Assembly (NCBI RefSeq): GCF_016767715.1
Contig: NZ_CP050145.1
Span: forward strand, 4,774,001-4,838,000
From: Mycobacteroides chelonae
Lineage (GTDB): Bacteria > Actinomycetota > Actinomycetes > Mycobacteriales > Mycobacteriaceae
Direction: 5' to 3'
Length of the DNA stretch: 64,000 bases
Shown: positions 28,199 through 45,041 of the stretch, in pieces
How the letters are laid out: each line of letters starts with the position of its first letter
How positions within the stretch are numbered: the first letter of the stretch is position 1
Notes under the pieces: model-generated
What the model was told of the DNA's origin: nothing
The model's database searches: none
Seen by the model: the letters and a program-made list of their open reading frames with translations, nothing else
Position numbers and translations under genes: made by a program

Positions 28199-29131
28199 AT
28201 GACCAACCCGGGCAGACCGATTGATATAGATGGGCGTATGCCCGAATCAGCGTTCGCCCCGGAGCCGGTCAGACAGATCTGGCAAGAGCTCGGTGTCCCG
28301 GGGATCGTGGACGTGCACACCCACTTCATGCCCAAGCCCGTCATGGACAAGGTGTGGGCGTACTTCGACTCGGCGGGGCCTCTCATCGGGCGCCCCTGGC
28401 CGATCACCTACCGCACCGAAGAGTCCCAGCGGGTACAGACGCTGCGAGAGTTCGGCGTGCTCCGGTTCACCTCGTTGATCTATGCCCACAAGCCGCAGAT
28501 GGCTGCCTGGCTGAATCAGTGGGCCACCCAGTTCGCGGCACAGACCCCGGACTGCGTGCACACCGCCACCTTCTTTCCCGAAGCCGGCGCCATCAACTAC
28601 GTGCGCGAGGCTATCGAGGCTGGCGCGGGCGTCTTCAAGGTCCACATCCAGGTGGGGGCGTTCTCCCCCATCGATCCGCTGCTCGTCCCCGTGTGGGGGC
28701 TTCTCGAGGACGCCGCTGTTCCGGTGGTGATCCACTGCGGCTCCGGACCGGCGCCGGGCGAGTTCACCGGGCCCGAGCCAATCCGGGTGCTGCTCAAGCA
28801 GTTCCCCCGCCTGCGCCTGATCATCGCGCATATGGGTATGCCCGAGTACTCCGACTTTCTCGATATCTCCGCGCAGTACGAGGAGGTACGTCTCGACACC
28901 ACCATGGCCTTCACCACGTTCTCGAATGAGAAGGCGCCGTTTCCGGAATCCGCCTACCCGCGACTGATAGATCTCGGTCACAAGATCTTCTTCGGCAGCG
29001 ACTTTCCGAACATCCCCTACGGATATGCCGAAGCGGTCACCGCGCTGCAGGTGTTGCCCGGTGTCGACGATAACTGGATGCGCGATGTCCTCTACCGCAA
29101 CGGCGCCACACTATTCCGTGTCGACGGCTAG
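28199..29131 (+). CDS. Amidohydrolase family (amidohydrolase-2/ACMSD-like) metal hydrolase
   Basis: 310 aa, TIM-barrel hydrolase or decarboxylase. Metal ligands: VDVHTHF (H-x-H) at about residues 38-44, VIHCGSG (His), IIAHMGMP (His), and FGSDFPN (Asp). No lysine-carbamate motif is visible, in keeping with the ACMSD-like group. ATG 28199 is used; ATG 28238 (MPESAFAP) is an alternative that would remove a poorly conserved leader. It is divergent from the copper operon and overlaps the convergent FAAL gene by 4 nt. Confidence 0.85.
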   Translation: MTNPGRPIDIDGRMPESAFAPEPVRQIWQELGVPGIVDVHTHFMPKPVMDKVWAYFDSAGPLIGRPWPITYRTEESQRVQTLREFGVLRFTSLIYAHKPQMAAWLNQWATQFAAQTPDCVHTATFFPEAGAINYVREAIEAGAGVFKVHIQVGAFSPIDPLLVPVWGLLEDAAVPVVIHCGSGPAPGEFTGPEPIRVLLKQFPRLRLIIAHMGMPEYSDFLDISAQYEEVRLDTTMAFTTFSNEKAPFPESAYPRLIDLGHKIFFGSDFPNIPYGYAEAVTALQVLPGVDDNWMRDVLYRNGATLFRVDG

Positions 29132-30789
29132 ACGAGCGAGCCCGCCCGATAGGCCTCCCGGACCATGAGCCGCTGACGTTTTCCGCTCGTGGTCCGGGGA
29201 ATGGTTCGCGCCGGTACCACAACCACCTCATCGAGGGAGAACCCGAAGGCGGCACGCACACCCCCGGCGATACGTGTCCGAAGTTCCGCATACTCGTCGA
29301 CTGGCGCGCGGGTCCCGACGACGGCGATCACCGACTCACGGGCCCGCTGTTCGTCACGCAAGGAGAAGACGACAGATACTCCACCGGCACCGGACATATT
29401 GTCGATCTCCCGCTCGATGTCGTAGGGCGGGAAATTGCGACCACGCACGATCAGCATCTCCTTGTGCCGGCCCACCACGAACAGTTCGCCATCGGTGAGA
29501 AAGCCGCGGTCGCCGGTGTCATGCCATCCACCCACAGGCGTGGCCACTCCCCCGTCTGCGGTGAGGTAGCCCGCCATCACCGATGGCCCCCTCACCTGAA
29601 TATCGCCGACCGTACCGTCTGATGAGCGCGCACCGTCTGGGGCGACGATCCGAAGTTCCAGGCCATCGACCACCTTCCCGCAGGAGACCACGGGCTCGCC
29701 GTCATCTGGCCCGCGCCCAATTCGCACCCTGCCGAAGGACAGCGCGTCAGGCATACAGGCTTGCAGCGCAACGGTTGTCGCGAGCACTGTTTCGGCCATG
29801 CCGTAGCACGGCACCAACACATCGGTCCGCATCCCCAGCGGTGCAAACCGTTCGGTAACCTCGCGCAGCACCGAGAACGCGATGGGCTCGGCGCCGACGT
29901 AGGCGTGACGCAGTGACGACAAGTCCACGTCTGCTATCGAGCCGCCACGCGAGATCGCCTCCGCCACTGCTCGATACGCGAACGGTGGCCCTGCGGTGTG
30001 TGTGGACCCGTGCTGGGACATGTGCCGAAGCCAGGACACCGGATCCCGCAAAAACCCCATCGGGGTCATCACACCGATCCGAAGGCCGTAGAGCAGCGCG
30101 GCCAGCACCTGGATAAATCCCATGTCGTGGTAGAACGGCAGCCAGCTGAACACTCGGTCCCGCCCGCGTAATGCCTTTGTGCCGTATGCGATTGCCGTGG
30201 CGTTGTGCACCACATTGCCGTGCGTCAGCAGTACGGCTTTAGGGGCCGACGTGGATCCGGAAGTGAGCTGGATGTGGTGGACGTCGCTGGGATCGGCACG
30301 CGAGCACCGCTTCCAGTCAATCGGTTCAGCATCAGTCAGCTCGTCATACATCACGACCAACGGGTGCGTGATCGCCACCTCTATCCGTGGCTGTGTGATT
30401 ACCATGGCCGGGTTCAGCACCCCCAGCGCCGCAACCAGATGCGCCACTCCTGCAGATTCCGGTCGCGACGGCGTCGGAGGCGGTGCGATCGCGCACGGTA
30501 CCGCGCCCAGCAAGAGCACTGCCAGCAGCGTGGTCAGGTACTCCTCGTCGCTCACCGCAATCATTGCCACCCGGTCGCCACGGCGAAGACCCCGCGCAGC
30601 CAGCGCCGCAGCACGAATCCTTATGGCATGAACCAGGTCTACCGCCGTGAGGGTATACAGATGGCGGCGCGAGTCGTAGAAGTCGATCTGCTCCAACTCC
30701 GAGCGCAGCAGCGCGGCGTAATCGATCGCGCCGGAGGCCAGAGCCGGAGCATTAGCCTTCGCATGCCGACTGATTGCTATGTCACTCAT
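29128..30789 (-). CDS. Fatty-acyl-AMP ligase-like AMP-binding protein
   Basis: 553 aa of the ANL superfamily. LTSGSTSAPKAVLLTHGN is the ATP loop; FSWLPFYHDMGFI is the motif shared by fatty-acyl-AMP ligases; then YGMAE, HDTGDRGFL and the lysine near TSGKRQR. FAALs make acyl-adenylate and load it onto a carrier protein. The ACP gene lies immediately upstream and overlaps (ATGA), so that ACP is the probable acceptor. It is the last gene of a seven-gene operon. Acyl substrate unknown. Confidence 0.9.
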   Translation of the reverse strand: MSDIAISRHAKANAPALASGAIDYAALLRSELEQIDFYDSRRHLYTLTAVDLVHAIRIRAAALAARGLRRGDRVAMIAVSDEEYLTTLLAVLLLGAVPCAIAPPPTPSRPESAGVAHLVAALGVLNPAMVITQPRIEVAITHPLVVMYDELTDAEPIDWKRCSRADPSDVHHIQLTSGSTSAPKAVLLTHGNVVHNATAIAYGTKALRGRDRVFSWLPFYHDMGFIQVLAALLYGLRIGVMTPMGFLRDPVSWLRHMSQHGSTHTAGPPFAYRAVAEAISRGGSIADVDLSSLRHAYVGAEPIAFSVLREVTERFAPLGMRTDVLVPCYGMAETVLATTVALQACMPDALSFGRVRIGRGPDDGEPVVSCGKVVDGLELRIVAPDGARSSDGTVGDIQVRGPSVMAGYLTADGGVATPVGGWHDTGDRGFLTDGELFVVGRHKEMLIVRGRNFPPYDIEREIDNMSGAGGVSVVFSLRDEQRARESVIAVVGTRAPVDEYAELRTRIAGGVRAAFGFSLDEVVVVPARTIPRTTSGKRQRLMVREAYRAGSLV

Positions 30790-31091
30790 GCCTGTTCGCG
30801 GCGTTTCGCCTTATCGCTAAGACGCTGACGGATGAGCACTCCGATATCGCCCACCACCGTGAACGCGAAGGCTTCCTCTTCGGGAATGAAGACCGAGAAC
30901 CTATCCTCCAGCTCGTTCATCAACGCCATCAGCACCACGGAGTCGACGGGTAAGGCGAGTAGCGGCGAATCGACGTCGACCGCCTCAAGATCGACCTGCA
31001 CCAGATCCTCCGCGGGAAGCAGCCGGGTCAAGGCATCTCGAAGCGCACCGATGATTTCCGTATCGTCTGGGAGCGCAACGGTTTCGGTCAT
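30786..31091 (-). CDS. Acyl carrier protein
   Basis: 101-aa carrier protein. The phosphopantetheine attachment is in LLALPVDSVVLMALMN, with Ser in the DS(V) motif at about residue 50. Acidic helices surround it. ATGA overlaps tie it to the ABC ATPase upstream and to the FAAL downstream. It should carry the acyl or peptidyl intermediate of the cluster. Confidence 0.9.
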   Translation of the reverse strand: MTETVALPDDTEIIGALRDALTRLLPAEDLVQVDLEAVDVDSPLLALPVDSVVLMALMNELEDRFSVFIPEEEAFAFTVVGDIGVLIRQRLSDKAKRREQA

Positions 31092-31774
31092 TTTTCCTCT
31101 TTCTCCAGCAACACGCCATCTTCGAGGTGCAGCACCCGATCAGCGATCCCGGTGAGGCGCAGATCGTGTGTCACGATCACCACCGCCGCACCTTGAGTCC
31201 GGGCGGCATCCGCGAGTTGTTCGGCCACCTTCTTCCCCGTAGCCGAATCCAGGTTCGCGGTGGGCTCATCGGCCAGGACCAGCCCTGGCCGCGCCACCAG
31301 GGCGCGTGCGGCAGCGACGCGCTGCTTCTCTCCGCCCGAGAGCGCCGGTGGGCGATGGCCGGTCCGGTGCCCCAATCCCAGCTCGGTCAGCACTTCCCTA
31401 GCCCGTGTCATCGCGGCATCCTTCTTGACCCCGGCATAGCGAAGCGGCAGAGCCACGTTCTCAGCGCTCGTCAACGCGTTGAGCAGGTTGTATTCCTGAA
31501 ATAGGAAGCCCAAGCGCTCCAAGCGGATTCGTGATCGCTCCCGTTCGCCGAGCTCGCCAACGTTCTGTCCATCGATCCGGATGTGCCCCGAATCCGGGGT
31601 TAGCAGAAGACCCATGACAAGAAGTGCGGTGGTCTTTCCTCCACCGGAGGGGCCGACGACCAGAACCACCTCATGGGGTTTGACCGTCAGATCCAGACCC
31701 CGCAGAGCACGCACCGCGGCATCACCGGCGCCGTACTGGTGTTCGACATTCTCAAGTTGCAAAACAGGATTCAT
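31088..31774 (-). CDS. ABC transporter ATP-binding protein (MacB/LolD-type)
   Basis: 228 aa from ATG 31774; the frame extends upstream through the permease gene but is not coding there. Walker [10 protein letters not shown], signature LSGGEKQR, Walker [10 protein letters not shown], and the H-loop VTHD are all present. The Gly-x-Gly-Gly-Gly Walker variant is normal for this group. Together with the FtsX-type permease it forms a mechanotransmission-type exporter. RBS (GGAGGTG) lies in the 5-nt gap and the end of the permease gene. Confidence 0.92.
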
Positions 31775-31779
31775 CGAAT

Positions 31780-32886
31780 TCACCTCCGGAAGGCCTGAGC
31801 AGGGTCGATCCGTGTGACCCGCCGGACCGGGATCAATGATCCGATGATCGCCATGACGCCCGTGGCGGCCGCCATCGCGGCGAGCATGGCGGGCGTGACC
31901 TCCACCATGACGTCGCCCATTCGGTCCTTCAGCAGAAACTGCACCCCATAGGTGACGCCCGCGCCCAGCACATATCCGAGTCCGGCGATCAAGGCGGCCT
32001 GGGTAATCACAGTGCGGCACAGCTGCGCCGGACGCACACCCAGCGCGCGCAGCACTCCGAAATCACCCATCTGCTCTGTGGTTACCGCGAGCACGGTCAG
32101 GCCCACCAGCGCCACCCCGACCAGCGCGGCGATCCCGATCATCGTCTTCAATGGTCGTCCGATCATCGAGATCACAATCGCCCGGCTGTTCTCGGCGAAC
32201 GTGTCGGAGGTGAGTGCGTCCATTCCGGGGGCCGACTTGCGGACCGAATCCGCGACCTGGTCCGTGCTGAATCCCTCGGCCGGTTGAACCAGGAAGTAGG
32301 ACACGCGATTTCCCGCACGCAGTAGACGCGTTGCATCGGGCAGCGAGATGAACGCATAGAAGTTGCCCACGGCGGCCGTTTGGTTCGACAACCCCACAAC
32401 CGTGAAATCACCGTCCACGAGCTGCACCGTGTCGCCAACATGGATCTTGTTCTTCTTGGCGAGGACACGATCGAGCACGACCTCGCCAGGTCCCGCTACG
32501 TTGCGCCCCTCCGACAATGACCACGGGCCGCCCACACCGGTGGCCGTGTCGTATCCGACGACGAAGTACGCGGTGTGCCCGCCGTCATGCACGAAATCCG
32601 ATGGGAGCCCCAGAATCGGTTCGGCGGACTGCACACCAGGGACCTTCAACAGCCGGTCCTTGCCGTCAGCGGGCAACCACGACACCGCGCGGAACATCTG
32701 GGAAACTCCGGGCTGGGCAACCCACACCGCCCCCTTGGAGTGGTCGATGTAAGTGGTGACCTGATTCGTGGTTCCCACGAAGATGCCGGACATCACCAAC
32801 ACCAGGATCACCGCGACGGCGACCCCGATCACCGAAAGGACAAATCGGGCGCGCTCTGCGACAAGGTTCTTGACGGCGACGATCAT
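31780..32886 (-). CDS. ABC transporter permease, FtsX/DevC-like
   Basis: 368 aa. Four membrane helices: one N-terminal (about 15-38), three in the C-terminal third (about 245-355), with a large extracytoplasmic domain between (MacB/DevC type). C-terminal PVRRVTRIDPAQAF is the usual FtsX ending. Its start overlaps the cysteine desulfurase stop. Likely exports or extracts the product made by the cluster. Confidence 0.9.
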   Translation of the reverse strand: MIVAVKNLVAERARFVLSVIGVAVAVILVLVMSGIFVGTTNQVTTYIDHSKGAVWVAQPGVSQMFRAVSWLPADGKDRLLKVPGVQSAEPILGLPSDFVHDGGHTAYFVVGYDTATGVGGPWSLSEGRNVAGPGEVVLDRVLAKKNKIHVGDTVQLVDGDFTVVGLSNQTAAVGNFYAFISLPDATRLLRAGNRVSYFLVQPAEGFSTDQVADSVRKSAPGMDALTSDTFAENSRAIVISMIGRPLKTMIGIAALVGVALVGLTVLAVTTEQMGDFGVLRALGVRPAQLCRTVITQAALIAGLGYVLGAGVTYGVQFLLKDRMGDVMVEVTPAMLAAMAAATGVMAIIGSLIPVRRVTRIDPAQAFRR

Positions 32887-34073
32887 CGGACCATCCCACC
32901 GGCCATGTCGCGCAACCTGTGTACGGCCCGAGTAGTAACCGCGACGACCCTGTCGACATCATCCGGTGACACGTCAGGCCCCATCGAGATCCGCACCGTG
33001 GCCCGCGCCTGGTCCTGGGTCAACTGCATCGCTTGCAGCACATGAGAAACCGAGTCTTCTCCAGCGTGACAGGCCGATCCGGTGGATACATAGATGCCGT
33101 GCATATCGAGATCGTCGGCGAGGGTGTCGGCGCGAATTCCGTCAAAGCGGACGCTGATTGTTTCCTCCAGCACCGGCTCTGTCACGTTGAGATGCACACC
33201 GCCAACGGCGCGGAGCCCATCGAGCAGCTGCTCGCGGCGGTCGCGCATGCCCAGCCGGTAGCCCATCGAGACAGAGCTCAGACACGCGTCGGCCGCGGCG
33301 GCCATGCCTAGCGCACCGGGCACGTTTTCGGTACCCGCGCGCAACCGGTTCTCCTGCGGTCCCCCGCGCATGACCGGCAACAGCTGATGTCCACCGCGTA
33401 CCAGTAGCGCACCCATTCCCCGTGGTCCGCCAAACTTGTGCGCGGAGACCGAGATCATTGTGGCACCAATGCTTGTCAGATCAAGCTTGCCGGCTGTGTG
33501 CACGGCGTCCACGTGGAATGCTGAACCCGACCGTGCGGCGATCTCGGCTATATCCCCAACCGGCTGGATGGCACCAGTCTCGTTGTTCGCGTGCATCACC
33601 GAGATCAGCCGCGTCTCGCGGCGCAACGCACGAGCCACCTGCGCCGCATCCACATGCCCGGTCGGCGCGGGATCGACGAAGGTCACTTCCACACCCAGGT
33701 CCTGCAGCGCGTGAGCATTCGCCAGGACTGCCGGATGCTCGATCGATGAGGTCACCAGGTGACCCTGAAACCCCACAGCCGCAAAGGTTCCCCATAGTGC
33801 CAAAGTGTTGGCCTCGCTTCCGCCGGAAGTCAGCACCACCTCCTCGGTATCGGCGCCGAAGAGCCTGGCAACGGTCTGGCGGGCATCGCTGAGGGCGTCC
33901 GCGGCGTCCCGCCCCGCGCTGTGTCGGCTCGACGGATTTCCGACTAGCCGGTGCCCGCTCAATATCGCCTGTGCGGCACGTGGATGCAGGGGTGCGGTGG
34001 CGGCGTAATCCAAGTAGATCTCTGCCGGCGCTATCTGCGCGGGTGGACTAAGTACCGGGGAGGGCGCTGACAT
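32883..34073 (-). CDS. Cysteine desulfurase (NifS/IscS family)
   Basis: 396-aa PLP enzyme that moves sulfur from cysteine to an acceptor. YLDYAATAPLHPRA start, HANNETGAIQP, catalytic lysine in VSAHKFGGPRGMG (about residue 215), and the persulfide Cys in STGSACHAGEDSVSHVL (about 340). It overlaps the IscU-like gene by 26 nt. In a cluster with ACP and acyl-activating genes it may provide sulfur for a product rather than only for Fe-S assembly. Confidence 0.93.
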   Translation of the reverse strand: MSAPSPVLSPPAQIAPAEIYLDYAATAPLHPRAAQAILSGHRLVGNPSSRHSAGRDAADALSDARQTVARLFGADTEEVVLTSGGSEANTLALWGTFAAVGFQGHLVTSSIEHPAVLANAHALQDLGVEVTFVDPAPTGHVDAAQVARALRRETRLISVMHANNETGAIQPVGDIAEIAARSGSAFHVDAVHTAGKLDLTSIGATMISVSAHKFGGPRGMGALLVRGGHQLLPVMRGGPQENRLRAGTENVPGALGMAAAADACLSSVSMGYRLGMRDRREQLLDGLRAVGGVHLNVTEPVLEETISVRFDGIRADTLADDLDMHGIYVSTGSACHAGEDSVSHVLQAMQLTQDQARATVRISMGPDVSPDDVDRVVAVTTRAVHRLRDMAGGMVR

Positions 34074-34449
34074 CTTCGTGAATTCCGTTGCGGTAGTTGT
34101 TGGCTAGGCGTTGTGCGACATCGGCGCCCAGGGCGGCGACGTGCTGCTGTTCCGGCGAGAGGCCCCCCGACCATTCCGCGACCTGCACCGCTTCGATCGC
34201 GGCGATCGTTTCCACCGGCATGCCGGTGAGCCGCTCGGTGAGGATGGACGCGACCGCCAGGGAAGCCGAGCATCCGTAGGCCTCGAAGCCGATCTGACTC
34301 ACGGTCTCGCCCTGCACCTGCGCGGTCAGCAGGATCTGGTCCCCGCACACCGGGTTGCCAATGAAGGCCGAAACATCGGATTGCGCAAGGCGGCCCGAGT
34401 TGCGCGGGTTGGTGAAGTGATCGACCACCGTCGGACTGAACCGGGGCAC
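34048..34449 (-). CDS. IscU/SufU-like scaffold lacking the C-terminal Cys
   Basis: 133 aa, GTG start in a TAGTG overlap with the LuxE-like gene. NPVCGD carries the first Cys (about residue 27) and YGCSASLAVAS the second. Canonical IscU has a His-Cys pair near the C terminus; the aligned region here reads QQHVAALG, so the His stays and the third Cys is Val. This is unusual for a cluster-building scaffold. A longer upstream frame would run through the previous gene. Confidence 0.82.
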   Translation of the reverse strand: MPRFSPTVVDHFTNPRNSGRLAQSDVSAFIGNPVCGDQILLTAQVQGETVSQIGFEAYGCSASLAVASILTERLTGMPVETIAAIEAVQVAEWSGGLSPEQQHVAALGADVAQRLANNYRNGIHEDVSALPGT

Positions 34450-35582
34450 TAGGCGTCCGCCAACTCGCACTCGGAAACGACTTCCCGAGAGTCGATGTAC
34501 TTTTCGATACTTACTGCGCAGCAGCCCAATTCGGCGCCCTGGCGTCGCCGCCGGAACTTCACGGTCTGGCCGGTACGGCCGCACGGACAGTCACCCTCGT
34601 CTACCTCGCCCACGTCGTCGGAGAGCAGGAAGCCGGGATACGCGGTGTTTAGCGCGTCAAGGATCGCTATTCCGCCGGTCTTACCGGGTTCAAGCTCGAC
34701 GGACGCGTCGGTGACGTCGCGGATCGAGATGTAGCACCACGGCGGCACATGTTTGCGTTGATGCTCGCACTCGATGGCGAGCATGTTGGACTCAATCATG
34801 CCGTACATGTCGCGGATGCGGGTGCGGTCAATGCCCAGCATGCGCTGTGCCTTTTCGTTGAAGTCGTCCCGGCTGATCGAGTTTCCGGTGTACTGCTTCC
34901 AGCCGCCCAGCATGATGATCAATGAGTCGGGGTCGAGGGTGAGCGGAATGTCCTCCAGCTCCAGGTACTTGAGGAATCTGGCGATGATGAACGGCGGACC
35001 GATCAGGTGCCGGGTCATCCGGCCATCCCAGCTCCGCAGCTGGGCCAACGCCTCCTCGGGGTCGAAGGAGTACTCACGCACGATGTAGCGATGGTCATCG
35101 AGCATGCCGGTGAGAAGGTTGAAGATCTTGACCATGCCCATCTCGGGCACTTCGGCGGTGGATGGGCACAGGAACAGGCCCGCGCCCTGGGAGATACCGA
35201 AGAAGTCCCGGTATCCACCGAAGATTCCGACCGATGCCCGGGTGACGGTCGTCGAATCGCGCCGCGCCACCGATGGCACACCGCTTGTGCCGGTGGAGCG
35301 GATCTCGATCTCTACATCCTCAAGGCCGCAGGTCATGAGGACGTGCGCGCCAGCCTGTTTGAACATGCTGACGGGAAGCAGAGGGATGCGCTGCAGGTCA
35401 GCCCAGGCGCGGATGTCACTCGGGGCGAGTCCGGCGGCGTCGCACTGGGCGCGGTAGAAGCCGTTACGTTCGAAGTGCAGCGCGAAGGCCTGACGTACCA
35501 CGTCGGTGAGCGACTCTCGCCAGTCGTCCCGCGCAACCCGGAGGGCTTCCCCCGGCATCCCGAGCATGGTGACCAATTCCAC
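34449..35582 (-). CDS. LuxE/acyl-protein synthetase-like protein
   Basis: 377 aa. The family includes LuxE, which activates an acyl group as AMP and transfers it to a Cys of an acyl-carrier or reductase. STGTSGVPS is the AMP-binding loop, and YGMIESN is the middle motif. The C terminus has a zinc-like CPCGRTG and ELGCCAVSIEKYID. GTG 35582 follows AAGGAG by 7 nt; it opens the seven-gene operon. Family assignment is by motif order and length. Confidence 0.82.
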   Translation of the reverse strand: MELVTMLGMPGEALRVARDDWRESLTDVVRQAFALHFERNGFYRAQCDAAGLAPSDIRAWADLQRIPLLPVSMFKQAGAHVLMTCGLEDVEIEIRSTGTSGVPSVARRDSTTVTRASVGIFGGYRDFFGISQGAGLFLCPSTAEVPEMGMVKIFNLLTGMLDDHRYIVREYSFDPEEALAQLRSWDGRMTRHLIGPPFIIARFLKYLELEDIPLTLDPDSLIIMLGGWKQYTGNSISRDDFNEKAQRMLGIDRTRIRDMYGMIESNMLAIECEHQRKHVPPWCYISIRDVTDASVELEPGKTGGIAILDALNTAYPGFLLSDDVGEVDEGDCPCGRTGQTVKFRRRRQGAELGCCAVSIEKYIDSREVVSECELADA

Positions 35583-35692
35583 TGCGCATCTCCTTTGACT
35601 GCCTAGCCCACACAGGGCACCGGTGGAGTGGTCGAATCATCGTGAGGAAAAGTTCCCGCAGAGTTTCGGGCTGTTATGGAAGAGTCCGGGCC

Positions 35693-37237
35693 ATGGCTGA
35701 TGAACCAATGCGCGCTGATCACGCTGAGCTATTGAGGCGACGTGCGCTTACCGAAGACGCGGCTCGCCCCGATGCAGTTGCCCGCCGCCACGCGGGCGGC
35801 GGCCGCACCGCGCGCGAGAACATCGCCGACCTGGTCGATGCGGAGTCGTTCGTCGAATATGGCCGATTCGCTATCGCTGCGCAGCGCCAGCGACGGGACA
35901 TCGCCGACTTGATCGCCCGCACACCCGCCGATGGTCTGGTGGCAGGGACCGCACGGATCGCGGGTCATCCGTGCGCCGTGCTGTCCTACGACTACACCGT
36001 GCTCGCCGGTACGCAGGGGGCGCTTGGACACCACAAGAAGGACCGGCTGTTCGATCTCATCGAGCGCATGAAGCTGCCGACGGTGTTCTTCGCCGAGGGC
36101 GGCGGCGGGCGTCCGGGCGATACCGACTATCCCGTTGTCTCGATGCTCGATGTACGTGCGTTCAAGTTGTGGGCCGCGCTCTCGGGCGTGGTGCCGCGGA
36201 TCTCCGTGGTCAAGGGCCGGTGCTTTGCGGGCAATGCCGTGATCGCGGGTTGCTCGGATCTGATCGTGGCAACCAGAGACACGTCCATCGGCATGGGCGG
36301 TCCGGCCATGATCGCTGGCGGCGGTCTCGGCGAGGTACACCCCGACGAGGTCGGGCCGCTGTCGGTGCAGTCGCCCAACGGGGTGGTCGACGTTGTCGTC
36401 GACGACGAAGAACAGGCCGTCGCTGTGGCCAAACGGCTCATCGGGTACTTCCAAGGGGCAGTGGAGCCAGGACACGCAGCGGACCAAACCGTCTTGCGCA
36501 CAATGATTCCCGAACGTGCTCGGCGAGCCTATCCCGTGGGGCCCATCATCGAGACGCTCGCCGACGAGGATTCGGTGACATTTCTGCGAGAGAAGTTCGC
36601 ACCCGAGATGATGACGGCACTCGCACGTATCGAGGGCCGTGCCATCGGGATCCTGGCCAATAATTCGATGGTGATGGCGGGAGCGATCACCGCGGCCGCA
36701 TCGGATAAGGCCGCTCGTTTCCTGCAGCTGTGCGACGCATTCGGGTTGCCGGTTCTTTCGTTGGTCGACTGCCCGGGATACATGGTGGGTCCCGCGGCGG
36801 AGGCCGATGCGTTGGTGCGGCGCGCCTCGCGCATGCTCGTCGCCGGAGCGGCACTTCGCGTACCGCTCGTCTCAGTCATCCTGCGCCGAGGGTATGGCCT
36901 TGGCGCGCAAGCTATGACCGGCGGCAGCCTGCACGAACCACTGCTGACGGTGGCTTGGCCCGGCGCACATCTGGGACCCATGGGCTTGGAAGGCGCGGTG
37001 CGTCTGGGGCTGCGCAAGGAGTTGGAGGCCATACCCGACGAGGCTGCCCGGGAGGAAGCGGTACGTCAGGCCACCGCGGCGGCACAAGAGAATGCCAAGG
37101 CGCTCAACGCTGCTCAGATATTCGAGATCGACGATGTGATCGATCCTGCAGAGACGCGATCGCTCATCGCCTCGACATTCGCCGCGGCCATGCGAGAGCC
37201 GCTGCCGCCGCGCAAATCCGTCGTCGACACCTGGTAG
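35693..37237 (+). CDS. Acyl-CoA carboxylase carboxyltransferase (beta) subunit
   Basis: 514 aa, AccD-type. GGRTARENIADLVDAESFVEYG opening, FFAEGGGGRPGD, RCFAGNAVIAGCSD, GIGMGGPAMI-type oxyanion region (SIGMGGPAMIAGGGLG), and YGLGAQAMTGG near the C terminus. It transfers CO2 from biotin to an acyl-CoA; a biotin-carrying partner is not in the window. Diverges from the LuxE operon over 110 bp. Start ATG 35693; the frame opens at 35642. Confidence 0.9.
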   Translation: MADEPMRADHAELLRRRALTEDAARPDAVARRHAGGGRTARENIADLVDAESFVEYGRFAIAAQRQRRDIADLIARTPADGLVAGTARIAGHPCAVLSYDYTVLAGTQGALGHHKKDRLFDLIERMKLPTVFFAEGGGGRPGDTDYPVVSMLDVRAFKLWAALSGVVPRISVVKGRCFAGNAVIAGCSDLIVATRDTSIGMGGPAMIAGGGLGEVHPDEVGPLSVQSPNGVVDVVVDDEEQAVAVAKRLIGYFQGAVEPGHAADQTVLRTMIPERARRAYPVGPIIETLADEDSVTFLREKFAPEMMTALARIEGRAIGILANNSMVMAGAITAAASDKAARFLQLCDAFGLPVLSLVDCPGYMVGPAAEADALVRRASRMLVAGAALRVPLVSVILRRGYGLGAQAMTGGSLHEPLLTVAWPGAHLGPMGLEGAVRLGLRKELEAIPDEAAREEAVRQATAAAQENAKALNAAQIFEIDDVIDPAETRSLIASTFAAAMREPLPPRKSVVDTW

Positions 37238-37930
37238 CTATTCCCCTGTCGCTATGAAATCGCGTTTTCCATACTGAATAGTGGCGTTCTGCCAACGGGC
37301 ACCGGCCGCATCCACGAGGCGATGCGCGGTGCTCACATCCTTGACGTCGGCAATCAGGATCAGCCACCCGTCTTCGGTGATCGACCCACCGACCAACGCC
37401 TCCCGCGCGGATGCGTCCGCCGCGAGCGCGTCGTGGAACCGCACGCGGTCGACGCCCGGAACCTCCACAGCCACAGCGTTTATCTCCGCATCTCCGGCCG
37501 GTAGGTATTCGAAGGTGAGCACCGATTCCTGACCGTACTGCCGCCGCACCTGCTCACCGATGCGTTGCAAGTCATCGCGATCCACGCACGCGAGTTCGAA
37601 CGCGCGCGACCGCTCGTAGGTCATGTGGTTGTTGTCCTGAGACCAGTACACGCCGTCAACCGGTGTCGACCGCACCGGCAGCACCAGATTCTGAGCGGAT
37701 ATCGCGCTCACCTGGAGCGAAAAGTCATCGAGGGGATCCAGCAGACGCCCATCGGCAGGATCGGTGATGACCGCGGTGTTGTTGGTGGCGAAGAGCTCTG
37801 CCTGAGGCCGGGCAGCATCACCCGGAACACATGCCTGTGGGTCGGCGTGAGCGAACCCCGCAGGCGGCCCGCCCAAGATGAGCATCAGCGCCGCAATTCC
37901 GATCGCGAACACGCGGGTCATCCGGTCCAT
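37238..37930 (-). CDS. Secreted protein of unknown function
   Basis: 230 aa with a signal peptide (MTRVFAIGIAALMLILGG ... AHAD, cleaved about residue 30). ATG 37930 or 37921. Two Cys (ACVPG, ELACVDR). Mature domain: alternate polar/hydrophobic, no recognised family. Its stop abuts that of AccD (37237), so the pair are convergent. It is divergent from the SoxR-box promoter. Confidence 0.75.
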   Translation of the reverse strand: MDRMTRVFAIGIAALMLILGGPPAGFAHADPQACVPGDAARPQAELFATNNTAVITDPADGRLLDPLDDFSLQVSAISAQNLVLPVRSTPVDGVYWSQDNNHMTYERSRAFELACVDRDDLQRIGEQVRRQYGQESVLTFEYLPAGDAEINAVAVEVPGVDRVRFHDALAADASAREALVGGSITEDGWLILIADVKDVSTAHRLVDAAGARWQNATIQYGKRDFIATGE

Positions 37931-37965: not shown

Positions 37966-37996
37966 TTGACCTCAAGCGCGCTTGAGCTCCTAGGTT
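37966..37996 (+). promoter_or_regulatory. SoxR-type promoter with 19-bp spacer
   Basis: TTGACC (37966-37971) and TAGGTT (37991-37996) are separated by 19 bp, longer than the usual 17. Between them CTCAAGCGCGCTTGAG (37971-37986) is a perfect palindrome that matches the SoxR box (CCTCAAG...CTTGAGG). The predicted start point (about 38003) is only 2 nt before the ATG at 38005, so the transcript is nearly leaderless. Confidence 0.82.
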
Positions 37997-38004
37997 GTGG
38001 ATCC

Positions 38005-38424
38005 ATGACCTCGATCCACGATCCGGCCGTCCGGCAGTTCCTCGATTCGACTCCCGCTCTGGTAGGGCAGCTGGGATATCTCGGAAACGACGGACGGCCG
38101 CTTGTGCTGCCTATCTGGTACCGGCTCAACGAGGACCACCTGCAGTTCGTCACGCACGTGAGCACCCTGAAAATCCGTTCTTTGCAACGTGATCCGCGCG
38201 CGGTAATCACCGTGGCCACGCCAGCAGAGCCCTACCTGTATGTCCAGGTTCAAGGGGAAGCCCACGTGGAACCCGACACCTCGAAAGTTCGAGACACCCT
38301 GATCGACATCACCACCCGGTACCTGGGAGCCGACCGTGCCGACGCGTACGTGGACGAGCACCACAGCGCGCCCGGCGAGGCGCTCGTGCGCATACATCCC
38401 GTCCGTGTCCACGCCGCTCTCTGA
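38005..38424 (+). CDS. PPOX-class F420- or FMN-dependent oxidase/oxygenase (pyridoxamine 5'-phosphate oxidase-like)
   Basis: 139 aa split-barrel flavin/deazaflavin-binding protein. The N-terminal QLGYLGNDGRPLVLPIWYRL, KIRSLQRDPRAVITVAT and the YVQVQGEAHVE block are characteristic. These enzymes reduce or oxidise small molecules with F420 or FMN. It is the first gene after the SoxR-type promoter, with the Hod-like dioxygenase 18 nt downstream. Frame opens at 37966, but the promoter shows ATG 38005 is the start. Confidence 0.88.
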   Translation: MTSIHDPAVRQFLDSTPALVGQLGYLGNDGRPLVLPIWYRLNEDHLQFVTHVSTLKIRSLQRDPRAVITVATPAEPYLYVQVQGEAHVEPDTSKVRDTLIDITTRYLGADRADAYVDEHHSAPGEALVRIHPVRVHAAL

Positions 38425-38442
38425 CACTCGGGAGGAGTCACG

Positions 38443-39237
38443 ATGTACACCATCACCGTCAATGGAGCGCAGCTCACCTTCGACGATCAAGGCCTGGACA
38501 ACGGACCCGCCATCCTGCTGCTCACTGGCTGGGGGCACGACCACCGTGCGTATGACGAGCTACTGCCCTACCTCGTTCCCCACCACCGCGTGATCCGCAT
38601 GGATTGGCGCGGCCACGGTATCGACCGCACACCCGCAGCCGACTTTGGTCTTACGGAACAGGTTTCAGATGTCATCGGGCTGCTTGATGCCCTGAGCGTG
38701 CAGTCGATCGTCCCCGTCGCTCATGCCCATGCCGGGTGGACCGCGCTTGAGATAGCCGACCGTCTCGGGACCGGGCGGGTGCCAAGCCTCGTGATCATTG
38801 ATCTGATCATGTCAGCGGCTCCTGCTGAATTCCTCAACGGCATAAGAGACTTTCGTGATCCGCAACGCTGGCAATCCAGTCGCCTCGACTTCCTCCGAGC
38901 GTGGCTATCCGGCAGCGACAATGAAGCCGTCAACCGGCACATCCGTTCCGAGATGGGCGGTTTCGGGTTCGACGTGTGGGCGCGAGCCGGACGAGTCATC
39001 GAAGATGCCTACACCACGTGGGGCTCACCCATGTCGCGAATGGAAAAGCTGGCCGAACCGCGACGCGTTCATCACATCTTCTGCAACCCCGAGCACACTG
39101 CCTACGATGATCTTCACCAAGAGTTCCAATCCCGCAATCCGTGGTTCAGCTACGTTCGCCTGCGCGGCACGACCCACTTCCCGCAGCTGGAGTTACCCGC
39201 ACAAGTCGCAGCGGAGATCACGCATCTGCTCTCGTAA
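38443..39237 (+). CDS. Hod/QDO/AqdC-like cofactor-free 2,4-dioxygenase (alpha/beta-hydrolase fold)
   Basis: 264 aa, like QDO in length. Alpha/beta-hydrolase fold with LTGWGHDHRAY, RMDWRGHG, and an EQVSDVIGLLDAL helix very close to Hod from Arthrobacter. The nucleophile elbow reads PVAHAHAGW: Ala95 replaces the Ser of Hod (PVSHSHGGW) with both flanking His kept. Asp120 and His245 (TTHFP) are in place. Hod, QDO and AqdC cleave 3-hydroxy-4-quinolones (including the Pseudomonas signal PQS) with O2 and no cofactor. 18 nt after the PPOX gene; AGGAG precedes the start. Confidence 0.82.
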   Translation: MYTITVNGAQLTFDDQGLDNGPAILLLTGWGHDHRAYDELLPYLVPHHRVIRMDWRGHGIDRTPAADFGLTEQVSDVIGLLDALSVQSIVPVAHAHAGWTALEIADRLGTGRVPSLVIIDLIMSAAPAEFLNGIRDFRDPQRWQSSRLDFLRAWLSGSDNEAVNRHIRSEMGGFGFDVWARAGRVIEDAYTTWGSPMSRMEKLAEPRRVHHIFCNPEHTAYDDLHQEFQSRNPWFSYVRLRGTTHFPQLELPAQVAAEITHLLS

Positions 39238-40026
<789 letters not shown>

Positions 40027-40123: not shown

Positions 40124-40633
40124 TTAGATCGCGACGGCGTCTGCTTCAGCGGGGGCCTCGTCGGCGGGAGTCGGCTCGGCATCAGGCGCGAGGACCGACG
40201 CGGGGATCACCTCGGGACCTTCCCCATGAGCGGGCACATCCAGCGGAGCGGCCTCACCCTCATTGTCCATCGGCAGGTACATGTGCCGCTTGAACTGCGC
40301 CTGGTAGGCGCCGCCGCCACCGATCTTGACGCCACCGCCCTCGCCACTGGACACCGCAGTGCCGTCGGGCAGCGTGACAGCGGTGTGACCGCCGTTCCAG
40401 CCAATCACCAATGCACCTGGTGCGGTGCCGTACTTGAAACCACGTGCGAGGAGGGCACGCTCTTGGTTCCCCGTATTGAAGCGAGAACCGAAGGCGGGAC
40501 GATCGGTGGCGACATTGGACACCCAGGAGGCCAGACCGGAGCAGTCGGTGCCACGGGCGGAGTCTCCGCCCGAGATGTACGGCGTACCCGAGACCTGATG
40601 GATAAACGCCAGCAAAGCAGCGAGATCAGACAT
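40124..40633 (-). CDS. Lysin-like Cys peptidase (NlpC/P60-related) with acidic tail
   Basis: 169 aa from ATG 40633; the frame opens at 40690. GGDSARGTDCSGLASWV carries the catalytic Cys and GWNGGHTAVTLPDG the catalytic His. This unit resembles the peptidase half of mycobacteriophage lysins and tape-measure proteins, and a family of mycobacterial proteins with the same layout. The C-terminal 45 residues are Pro/Ala/Glu-rich and disordered. No signal peptide is visible. It may be a phage remnant or a wall hydrolase. Confidence 0.75.
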   Translation of the reverse strand: MSDLAALLAFIHQVSGTPYISGGDSARGTDCSGLASWVSNVATDRPAFGSRFNTGNQERALLARGFKYGTAPGALVIGWNGGHTAVTLPDGTAVSSGEGGGVKIGGGGAYQAQFKRHMYLPMDNEGEAAPLDVPAHGEGPEVIPASVLAPDAEPTPADEAPAEADAVAI

Positions 40634-41435
40634 GGGACGCGACGCTAACAACGAGCTTGACGACCTACCAAAATATGTGGCTTGCGTCATATTTGCTGAA
40701 AATTATGGCGAGAATTACTCTCCGCCAACGCCTTACTGATTACGGTAGAGCATGGATGAACGTTCGTCCAATCCAACAAACGCCCAGTACATGACTGGTT
40801 TGTTGAATGTTCGATGACCCTGCGCCGCAATTTGCTGTGCGCTAATCACATTGGTCACTTTTCTCACACATCCATGCATCTCTTGTATTAACGCGGGAAA
40901 TTTTCTGTTACCCATCCCACCTTTTGGGCACCCTTCGTCCCACTCTCTGGGATGGCTTGCGCGCTATCTCATTCGGCGAAATAGCCGCACGTCCCGCCCA
41001 TGAAATAGACGCGGCATGCATTTTCTTCCGGTGGTGGCCACCGTCATCCACGAATACGAGAACAAGGAGCTGCCGCCTGACGCCGAACCGCCTCTTGCAC
41101 TTCTGAATCCGCTCCCGACCCCGTGTTCGCACTCGCGAAAGCATCCGTGCGCCAGGCAACTCCAATATCATGGATGCGTACCGGACCGTATTCGACTGTG
41201 CCGCAATAGTTGCCGATGAATATCATTCATCCCACAGCACGATACGTGTCGTCCGTGGGGAGTCATGCCTCGGGCGCGCCAGCCGGGGAGACAGCGGTGC
41301 TCTCGTACGTGCGGGCCGAGTTCTCTTTCGAGAATCGGCCCGCAGTCTCAGTGCTCATCGGGGTAGTGGCGCCACGGCAGGAGGATGCTTGGCAGATCCG
41401 CTCACTACCAAGTGCCGCCACCACCGAAGGGGTGG
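40634..41435. other. About 800 bp, AT-richer, no convincing gene
   Basis: The first half is richer in A/T than its surroundings. Open frames of 60-100 codons occur on both strands but none has a ribosome-binding site with protein-like codon use. A hairpin at 40774-40805 (CAACAAAC/GTTTGTTG, with inner CAGT/ACTG) is the only structure seen. Confidence 0.6.
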
Positions 41436-42149: not shown

Positions 42150-42314
42150 CATTCACCCTGTTCAACGGTATTAAGGTCCACCTGGTTCCCAATTTATGAG
42201 ATCCTCGGCTGATTCTCAGCTAAAACTCAGAATACCCCATGGGGGTTGGGGTCAGCGAAGGGTGGTATATAGCCGTTAACTTGCCGTTAACCAGGCGAAA
42301 CAGTCCGAACTGTC

Positions 42315-42334
42315 TAGATCAACTGATCTATAAT
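42315..42334 (+). promoter_or_regulatory. TetR auto-operator overlapping a perfect -10
   Basis: TAGATCA-AC-TGATCTA (42315-42330) has exact 7-bp arms and runs into TATAAT at 42329-42334. The start point would be about 42341, the A of the ATG, making a leaderless transcript that the TetR can switch off by binding over its own -10. Confidence 0.7.
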
Positions 42335-42340
42335 TCGATC

Positions 42341-42967
42341 ATGCGATCTAAAACCGGTCGGGAGCCGACGTTCACCGAGGTCGCCCGCCGCGATCAGATC
42401 GTCGCGTGCGCCATCGAAGTCATCGCCCAGGTGGGTTATCCGCAGACCTCGATTCGGAAGATCGCCGAGCGTGCCGGAATCGCGATGAGCGTGGTGCTGT
42501 ACCACTTCGGTTCCAAGGATGGACTCGTCGAGGCGGTGATCGCCTCCATGTACCGGTCCGGACTCGATGCGGTGATCCCCGAGGTTGATCGAGCGCGGAC
42601 GCAGACTGACAAGCTTGCGGCCTATATCCGTTCCAGTATCAGCTATTTCGACAGCCACCGGATTCAGTTGGCGGCGCTGACACAGCTCGCAGCGGGCTAC
42701 AAACCCAGCGGCGGCAGACATCTGCGCGATATGGGATTGACACCCGAGCTGACCGCGCAATTGACCCAGCTCGACCCATCAGTCATTCTCCGAGCCGGTC
42801 AGAAGTCCGGCGAATTCTCCTCCTTTCCAGTCGATTCCACTGCGATCGCCCTGCGAGGTGCGGTCAATATCGTCGTGGAGAAGATCCTGCAAGACCCCGG
42901 ATTCGATACACACGGATATACCGAGGATCTCGTGAAGATGTTCCGGCGAGTAGTGCGGAGGGTGTAG
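42341..42967 (+). CDS. TetR family transcriptional regulator, leaderless
   Basis: 208 aa from ATG 42341; the frame opens at 42239 but that would cross the promoter. HTH at about residues 20-62 (RDQIVACAIEVIAQVG ... IAERAGIAMSVVLYHFGSKDGLVEAVI). The promoter evidence fixes the start. The stop overlaps the glycosyltransferase GTG (TAGTG), so it is translationally coupled to the gene it probably controls. Confidence 0.9.
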   Translation: MRSKTGREPTFTEVARRDQIVACAIEVIAQVGYPQTSIRKIAERAGIAMSVVLYHFGSKDGLVEAVIASMYRSGLDAVIPEVDRARTQTDKLAAYIRSSISYFDSHRIQLAALTQLAAGYKPSGGRHLRDMGLTPELTAQLTQLDPSVILRAGQKSGEFSSFPVDSTAIALRGAVNIVVEKILQDPGFDTHGYTEDLVKMFRRVVRRV

Positions 42968-44199: not shown

Positions 44200-44345
44200 G
44201 GGTCGCCGCGAGTCCTAGGCAGAGGCGACCGAGGAAGTCCGCGACACCCCTCATGAGCCAGTCCACGTCATCAGCGCGGTGTGGACTCGGTCGCGGTTCC
44301 CTGGTCATGCCATCTGACTGAATTACGGAGACAGTGTTGCCGAAA

Positions 44346-44374
44346 TTGCCGGGCGGTGTCAAGAGGGACATACT
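44346..44374 (+). promoter_or_regulatory. Candidate leaderless promoter for the 44382 TetR
   Basis: TTGCCG (44346-44351) and CATACT (44369-44374) are separated by 17 bp; the start point would be at or next to the GTG at 44382. Supports the shorter start. Confidence 0.45.
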
Positions 44375-44381
44375 GGCCGGT

Positions 44382-45041
44382 GTGACGGACGAGCGACGAA
44401 CACGCGGCCGCCCACCTGTACCCATGGATTCGATCGTCGACGCGGCGCTGCGGATCGTGGATGAAGAGGGCGGCGAGGCGCTGTCGATGCGCGCGCTGGC
44501 ACGTCGGCTCGATTCCGGGACCGCGACGATCTATCGGCATTTCGAGAACCGCACCGAGCTCGTCGCACATGTCGTCGATCGAGTCTTTGGAGAGGTCGAG
44601 TTCGACGACCAGAAACTCGCGGAACTCCCCTGGCAGCGCGCGTGCATCGTCACCTCGCGTGCGTTGTTCGAGGCCATGCGGCGGCATCCGAATGTCGCCG
44701 CGTTGCTCACCGAGCAGTTGCCCGTCGGGCCGAAGGTCTTCATGCTCCGCGAACGCACGCTCGCACTGTTTGTGAATGCAGGGTTCTCCCCGGGGGATGC
44801 GGCCCGCATCTATACGACTGTGGGCCGATACGTCCTGGGCTTCGCGACTCAGCTAGGAGTGGAACATAGGAGCCGCGGCACCGATCCCGCACTCCTGATG
44901 CGTCTCGTGCAGGACCTCGACCTGGCCAACTTCCCGATGACACTCGCCATCGGGAACTCCCTGGCCGTTTCGATTGAGGATGATTTCGAGTTCGGCCTGG
45001 GACTGCTCGTCACCGGCCTGGAACATCTTCACGACAAGTAA
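44382..45041 (+). CDS. TetR family regulator (TetR_C_1-like)
   Basis: 219 aa from GTG 44382; GTG 44334 is an alternative with a GGAG 3 nt away. HTH at about residues 15-60 (IVDAALRIVDEEGGEALSMRALARRLDSGTATIYRHFENRTELV), which resembles TetR/ActR-type regulators. The C-terminal domain looks like TetR_C_1. Neighbours are the membrane protein at 45115 and the GT1 gene upstream. Confidence 0.85.
   Translation: MTDERRTRGRPPVPMDSIVDAALRIVDEEGGEALSMRALARRLDSGTATIYRHFENRTELVAHVVDRVFGEVEFDDQKLAELPWQRACIVTSRALFEAMRRHPNVAALLTEQLPVGPKVFMLRERTLALFVNAGFSPGDAARIYTTVGRYVLGFATQLGVEHRSRGTDPALLMRLVQDLDLANFPMTLAIGNSLAVSIEDDFEFGLGLLVTGLEHLHDK

Follow-up and report, generated by a model that had tools for sequence, protein, structure and literature searches.

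The 64,000-nucleotide stretch of Mycobacteroides chelonae DNA analysed here (the window) contains a compact promoter that leads into two closely spaced genes on the same strand (Table 1). A perfect 16-bp palindrome, CTCAAGCGCGCTTGAG, lies within the promoter and overlaps the -35 element, with the final C of TTGACC common to both. The coordinates of this palindrome and of the 19-bp spacer that surrounds it, which formed the starting point of the original prediction, hold on re-checking. The first gene has its ATG only 8 nt downstream of the -10 element, and, judged by this geometry, the mRNA would be near-leaderless at its start.

Table 1 Features of the M. chelonae locus and of related sites elsewhere in the genome (window positions; entries beginning with G000 are genome positions)
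Feature	Position	Strand	Basis or remark
Carboxyltransferase gene	35642-37237		
230-aa protein	37238-37930	-	No family over cut-off; divergent from the operon
Promoter	37966-37996	+	-35 TTGACC 37966-37971; 19-bp spacer 37972-37990; -10 TAGGTT 37991-37996
SoxR-type operator (predicted)	37971-37986	.	Perfect 16-bp palindrome
PPOX-class F420-type oxidoreductase, FDOR-B-like, 139 aa	38005-38424	+	PF01243, TIGR03618
HQD, Hod/AqdC-type cofactor-independent alpha/beta-hydrolase-fold dioxygenase, 264 aa	38443-39237	+	phmmer, residue mapping, tree
SDR gene	39238-40026		
TetR-type regulator gene	42239-42967	+	3 kb downstream of the operon
TetR-type regulator gene	44334-45041	+	5 kb downstream of the operon
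SoxR	G000:C1:2349253-2349666	-	171 bits against a cut-off of 116.9 (TIGR01950)
MFS pump gene	G000:C1:2349697 (L034)		SoxR-type promoter
MBL-fold protein	G000:C1:2502162 (L035)		SoxR-type promoter
VOC protein, toxoflavin-lyase-like	G000:C1:3105707 (L036)		SoxR-type promoter
FMN reductase	G000:C1:3764792 (L037)		Weaker box, three mismatches
Cupin, quercetinase-like	G000:C1:4080709 (L032)		SoxR-type promoter

The two genes and their neighbours

For the product of the first gene, PF01243 gives 39.5 bits, and TIGR03618, the NCBIfam model for the F420-dependent PPOX class, gives 88.5 bits, above its curated cut-off of 79.05. The protein is predicted to belong to this class (FDOR-B). Its closest solved structure by sequence, 3f7e, is a remote match (30.6 bits, E = 2.8e-6) and represents MSMEG_3380, an FDOR-B1 enzyme with strong quinone activity (PMC8498797). 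Both the family and the position of this near-leaderless gene had been anticipated correctly, whereas the accompanying label of 'PPOX oxidase' is better replaced by the safer name 'reductase-type', given that the TIGR03618 cut-off is passed.

The second gene begins 18 nt past the PPOX stop codon and is preceded by a ribosome-site-like stretch, GGGAGGAG. Searches with phmmer align its product with AqdC of Mycobacteroides abscessus (6ra2/6rb3; E = 2.2e-103 for 6ra2), Hod of Arthrobacter sp. Rue61a (2wj3; E = 2.6e-69) and QDO (E = 3.9e-52), and the best solved match outside the HQD family reaches an E value of only 1.6e-8. Sequence identity is 57.5% to AqdC, 41.5% to Hod and 56.4% to P0016, a protein assigned to N. 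farcinica by its label only. The catalytic His-Asp dyad is kept as Asp120/His245, equivalent to Asp126/His251 of Hod, and Hod residues Trp36, His38, His100, His102 and Trp160 correspond to Trp30, His32, His94, His96 and Trp154, respectively. AqdC shares with the window protein the dyad, the active-site Trp and His residues, and an alanine at the nucleophile elbow (Ala95 here, Ala96 in AqdC), where Hod carries Ser101. The missing catalytic serine could be taken as the mark of a dead enzyme, a reading that we rejected because AqdC naturally has alanine at this position and the nucleophile is not essential (PMC10548524).

In a phylogenetic tree, the window HQD and proteins P0002-P0008, six of which carry a mycobacterial label or no label, form one clade (support 1.000) that is separate from AqdC. 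Thus, E values, dyad and tree agree with the original prediction of a Hod/QDO/AqdC-like gene 18 nt after the first. These data support membership of the HQD with AqdC and Hod, and cleavage of a 3-hydroxy-4-quinolone ring with release of CO is the predicted reaction. No second HQD was found in the M. chelonae genome, where the next matches have E values of 8.7e-9 or weaker.

The unit is flanked by the gene for the 230-aa protein and the carboxyltransferase gene on one side and by the SDR gene on the other. At the corresponding locus of M. franklinii (L042), the 230-aa gene is absent and the box comes after the carboxyltransferase gene. Elsewhere in the window, a glycosyltransferase gene (EryCIII/GT28-like, plus strand) sits between the two TetR-type genes, 3-6 kb downstream of the operon, and a row of genes on the minus strand (29128-35582) encodes an AMP-binding enzyme, an ABC transporter ATPase, a cysteine-desulfurase-like class-V aminotransferase and a LuxE-like acyl-protein synthetase, resembling a small biosynthetic cluster. 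An NlpC/P60-like label for the open reading frame at 40124-40690 was dropped because no Pfam family was found.

The layout differs from that of the aqdR-A-B-C cluster, as had been predicted. Genes resembling aqdA or aqdB are not found among the neighbours of the PPOX-HQD unit, and TetR-type genes, the class to which AqdR belongs, appear only 3 and 5 kb downstream, so that the PPOX gene rather than aqdA, aqdB and aqdR accompanies the dioxygenase gene. When the HQD-linked FAD monooxygenase of another actinobacterial locus (L095), and not AqdB itself, was used as the query, the best match in M. chelonae was 31% identical. On these two observations, we rejected an aqd-type pathway at this locus.

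A related possibility is that the operon is expressed constitutively or under some other control, and that the HQD serves the catabolism of quinolones or flavonol-like carbon sources. Indeed, the Hod and aqd pathways are catabolic, with Hod acting in quinaldine degradation (PMC8961568), and SDR, carboxyltransferase and TetR-type genes are all present in the vicinity. However, the scanned neighbours include no recognisable linked pathway, the half-sites of the box are better conserved than their surroundings, and pump and VOC genes elsewhere in the genome have promoters of the same type (see below). We therefore regard a purely catabolic operon as improbable.

A SoxR-type promoter and its conservation

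Palindromy by itself was dropped as evidence because the window holds eight perfect 16-bp palindromes. By contrast, the 5.06-Mb genome holds 4 matches to the pattern CTCAAGNNNNCTTGAG, where 0.2 would be expected from the single-base composition of the window, and the reversed control matches once genome-wide. When three or fewer mismatches are allowed, the complete promoter-type pattern is found at six places and its control at none; each of the six copies has a start codon 6-8 nt downstream. The perfect score of the window site is not independent evidence, since the pattern was designed around that very site. The window box is a CCTCAAG-type palindrome in the 19-bp spacer between the -35 and -10 elements, as in SoxR targets. 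Compared with the E. coli SoxR box given in PMC4411124, it has the same base at 13 of 18 positions, and only the four bases in the centre and the final one differ.

The M. chelonae genome encodes one SoxR protein that passes the curated TIGR01950 cut-off (Table 1), and so the proposal survives one of the refutations named in the original prediction, the lack of a SoxR homologue in the genome. This protein combines a MerR helix-turn-helix domain with the CxxCxCx5C [2Fe-2S] motif, carried as CIGCGCLSMTKC, and aligns with 2zhg, the structure of E. coli SoxR, with an E value of 2.1e-38. Divergent from soxR is an MFS gene (PF07690 over the cut-off; DHA2 efflux model TIGR00711 below it) that begins 6 nt after TTGATCTCAAGTGCACTTTAGCTCATAGCGT, in the same architecture as that of the window promoter. 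Furthermore, the 16-mer of the window recurs unchanged within the divergent soxR/MFS promoter of Segniliparus rugosus (G103:C2:749596-749626). The M. chelonae soxR locus also matches soxR-mfsA of Stenotrophomonas maltophilia in its TTGACC element, 19-bp spacer, SoxR box and divergent soxR and MFS genes; in that species SoxR control was demonstrated by EMSA and mutants, and the portion of the report available to us describes no HQD or PPOX target (PMC4411124). The presence of a SoxR in the genome and of this promoter architecture between soxR and its pump gene support the original assignment of a SoxR-type box, and the palindrome is very probably a SoxR operator.

We also considered whether the box might be used by another MerR-family regulator. 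A 19-bp spacer is common to MerR-type promoters, and the genome contains 12 matches to MerR_1. In addition, a look-alike site with three mismatches (two in G100) lies beside a gene for a 218-224-aa MerR-type protein in four relatives. However, among the listed sites only soxR adjoins a good promoter-type box (in M. chelonae and in Segniliparus), and the remaining 11 MerR_1 matches of M. chelonae all lie away from the listed boxes. We rejected the look-alikes because in M. chelonae the corresponding stretch, which has CATCAAG/CTTCACC ends, runs into the beginning of its MerR-type gene. Given also the resemblance of the window box to the E. coli SoxR box (PMC4411124), control by a different MerR-family protein seems quite unlikely.

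Seven loci besides the window carry the PPOX-HQD unit, six of them from a related-locus search and one (L038) from a sample of the genus. The carriers are Mycobacteroides franklinii, two Mycobacteroides sp., two Mycobacterium sp., Segniliparus rugosus and the L038 genome, such that six of the seven are mycobacterial and one is Segniliparus. The PPOX and HQD genes are adjacent on the same strand at all seven, separated by 11-37 nt, as expected if they constitute the two-gene unit envisaged by the original prediction. A promoter-type box with 0-2 mismatches precedes the unit in all eight genomes found to carry it, including that of M. chelonae; four relatives have one mismatch and another (G102) has two, mostly within the half-sites. 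Across the eight loci, mean pairwise identity is 0.91 for the ten half-site columns, 0.54 for the four central bases, 0.82 for the -35 element and 0.88 for the -10 element, compared with 0.33 for the 60 bp upstream and 0.72 for the 60 bp downstream, which are mostly coding. The operator is therefore conserved phylogenetically in the window and at the seven other loci.

The most distant carrier, Segniliparus (L044), has -35 and half-site sequences equal to those of the window, whereas its -10 element is equal at half of the positions and AGGAGG occurs in a leader that is longer than that of the window. Its PPOX protein is 55% identical to that of the window. The HQD frame in this draft genome is interrupted (L044 6001-6845), for which a sequencing error and a real loss are alike possible.

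Each of the seven other unit-bearing genomes also encodes a SoxR over the cut-off. Taken alone, the presence of SoxR in all eight carriers is weak evidence, because SoxR is common in the genus (62 of the 98 genomes sampled), and we rejected co-occurrence as a strong argument on this basis. The PPOX-HQD unit, however, is rare. HQD genes are present in two of 98 genus genomes, counting that of M. chelonae, and in three of 397 genomes of the order (at a stricter threshold, with at most six candidates scored in the genomes shown). PPOX orthologues of at least 78% identity occur in four of 198 genus genomes (G000, G050, G527 and G567). The coordinates in G527 and G567 match those in the HQD-bearing G102 and G098 and, if these are the same genomes, all four PPOX carriers also bear an HQD.

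Other actinobacterial HQDs (P0009-P0021) were also found, and genomic context outside the eight unit loci was covered for L095 and L096, two loci from the order sample. Neither has the box within 1400 bp upstream, where the best match has eight mismatches, and these HQDs were rejected as SoxR targets. The HQD gene of L095 adjoins one for an FAD-binding protein of the PF01494 type.

A predicted SoxR regulon

The eight unit-bearing genomes contain 54 listed promoter-type sites, compared with one control match. We examined 49 of these, setting aside four MerR-adjacent look-alikes (G098:C19, G099:C16, G100:C2 and G101:C20) and a PPOX site of G100 read in reverse. Of the sites examined, 45 lie ahead of a gene from one of seven families: PPOX-HQD, VOC and MFS (eight sites each, one set in every genome), cupin and FMN reductase (seven each), MBL-fold (six) and a second PPOX (one). 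Of the remaining four, three are unclassified (L134, L135 and L138) and one adjoins the second soxR gene of G098 (L081/L045). This tabulation measures recurrence rather than independent function, because the reference proteins were taken from genes behind such sites. In Segniliparus rugosus, the listed sites number three and belong to PPOX-HQD, VOC and soxR/MFS. The FMN-reductase box, with three mismatches in each case, is present in all seven mycobacterial genomes (L037, L130, L131, L133, L136, L137 and L140) and is not among the sites listed for Segniliparus.

Two individual sites add to this picture of the relatives. In M. franklinii, a second and different F420-type PPOX gene (L092; G101:C5:207163), whose product scores 153.6 bits against the TIGR04023 cut-off of 85.6, has a SoxR-type promoter with two mismatches. 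The second SoxR of G098 (G098:C14) has its own divergent box.

Several of the recurring families resemble enzymes that act on rings. The only solved relatives of the VOC protein with E values below 0.001 are the toxoflavin lyases TflA/TxDE (3pkv and 3oul; E = 8.2e-10 and 7.7e-9), a remote relationship (41.5 bits) that spans residues 11-190 of 223, for a gene located elsewhere in the genome and outside the window unit. All three Mn-ligand positions are kept, in that His57, Glu112 and Glu137 align with the ligands His60, Glu113 and Glu138 of toxoflavin lyase (PMC3143149). The cupin has quercetin 2,3-dioxygenase as its best solved match (E = 2.1e-7; best stretch alone 20.3 bits), and the MBL-fold protein has glyoxalase II (E = 2.2e-4). 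Quercetin 2,3-dioxygenase also removes CO from a 3-hydroxy-4-oxo ring. These matches are remote, and they hint at the kind of protein and not at its substrate.

Since 45 of the 49 sites precede seven recurring families, the most suitable reading of the PPOX-HQD operon is that it belongs to a conserved set of predicted SoxR targets made up of efflux and ring-attacking enzymes. In this predicted regulon, PPOX-HQD is one of about six targets, and the compact defence unit of the original prediction would probably not stand alone.

Small SoxR regulons of pumps and small-molecule-modifying redox enzymes are likewise found in S. coelicolor and Pseudomonas aeruginosa, and such sets of transporters and modifying enzymes have been predicted for non-enteric SoxR proteins in general (PMC4146615). 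For these two species, the text available to us names transporters and redox enzymes, including a monooxygenase, as targets, with no HQD, PPOX or toxoflavin-lyase-like VOC among them (PMC4146615), and their inducers are endogenous antibiotics.

Inducers and substrates

On the basis of the promoter anatomy and the regulon, we consider it likely that PPOX-HQD is a SoxR-controlled operon through which the cell answers redox-active compounds with export and destruction. Without stress, SoxR carrying its [2Fe-2S] cluster would occupy the palindrome, which lies in an over-long spacer of 19 bp, and the promoter would be used poorly. A redox-active small molecule would oxidise the cluster, and oxidised SoxR would then distort the spacer such that RNA polymerase can use the TTGACC and TAGGTT elements. 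The near-leaderless mRNA would yield an F420H2-type PPOX reductase and a cofactor-free dioxygenase, which would cleave a 3-hydroxy-4-quinolone-like ring with O2 and thereby release CO. Acting with the co-regulated pump, VOC, cupin and MBL-fold proteins, these enzymes may export and chemically destroy redox-active or co-produced heteroaromatics made by neighbouring organisms. It is only operon linkage that connects the PPOX protein and the HQD to one substrate.

Actinorhodin, pyocyanin, toxoflavin and plumbagin act as inducers of the SoxR targets of S. coelicolor, and paraquat does not (PMC5288332). By analogy, pyocyanin, toxoflavin or quinones, rather than paraquat, are the predicted inducers in M. 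chelonae. Toxoflavin, quinones and flavonols are also candidate cues or substrates, because other enzymes of the regulon remotely resemble toxoflavin lyase and quercetinase.

The original prediction pointed to a more specific opponent, Pseudomonas. In the form assessed here, phenazines of Pseudomonas aeruginosa would trigger SoxR and the signal PQS would be destroyed by the HQD, as quorum quenching or as detoxification. The similarity of the HQD to AqdC and to the N. farcinica-labelled P0016 is consistent with this idea, given that PQS is cleaved by AqdC and by an N. farcinica HQD (PMC8961568), that pyocyanin activates S. coelicolor SoxR (PMC5288332) and that aqd-bearing M. abscessus strains lower PQS in co-culture (PMC5332414). 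However, M. abscessus has its own PQS-inducible cluster for this pathway, with the partners AqdA and AqdB and the TetR-type regulator AqdR, in place of the F420-type PPOX and SoxR-type promoter found here (PMC5332414). Moreover, aqdA/aqdB-like neighbours and a close match to the FAD monooxygenase of L095 are both lacking in M. chelonae, and the remaining enzymes of the regulon point at other compounds. A defence directed at PQS is plausible in principle, and we hold it to be a doubtful account of this operon.

Returning to the broader SoxR response to redox-active compounds, we tentatively suggest a further possibility in which Mycobacteroides and Segniliparus possess a SoxR 'ring-destruction' regulon against foreign redox-active heteroaromatics, comprising a sensor, a pump and several ring-opening or reducing enzymes. 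PPOX-HQD could then constitute an undescribed two-step route, in which reduction with F420H2 would generate or preserve a compound whose 3-hydroxy-4-oxo group is free, ready for ring opening by the dioxygenase.

SoxR regulons and HQDs are each already known, and we found no report linking SoxR with an HQD in an open-licence literature library. The genome paper for strain Rue61a, the source of Hod, mentions soxR, with no link to hod in the text available to us (PMC3534580). If the proposed control is real, a ring-cleaving dioxygenase would join the pumps and modifying enzymes of SoxR regulons, and an HQD would have acquired a redox-stress trigger instead of induction by its substrate. Our analysis names a small, conserved set of genes for joint testing, and with it the testable idea that non-tuberculous mycobacteria may sense the redox-active pigments of their competitors and answer by degrading signals or toxins.
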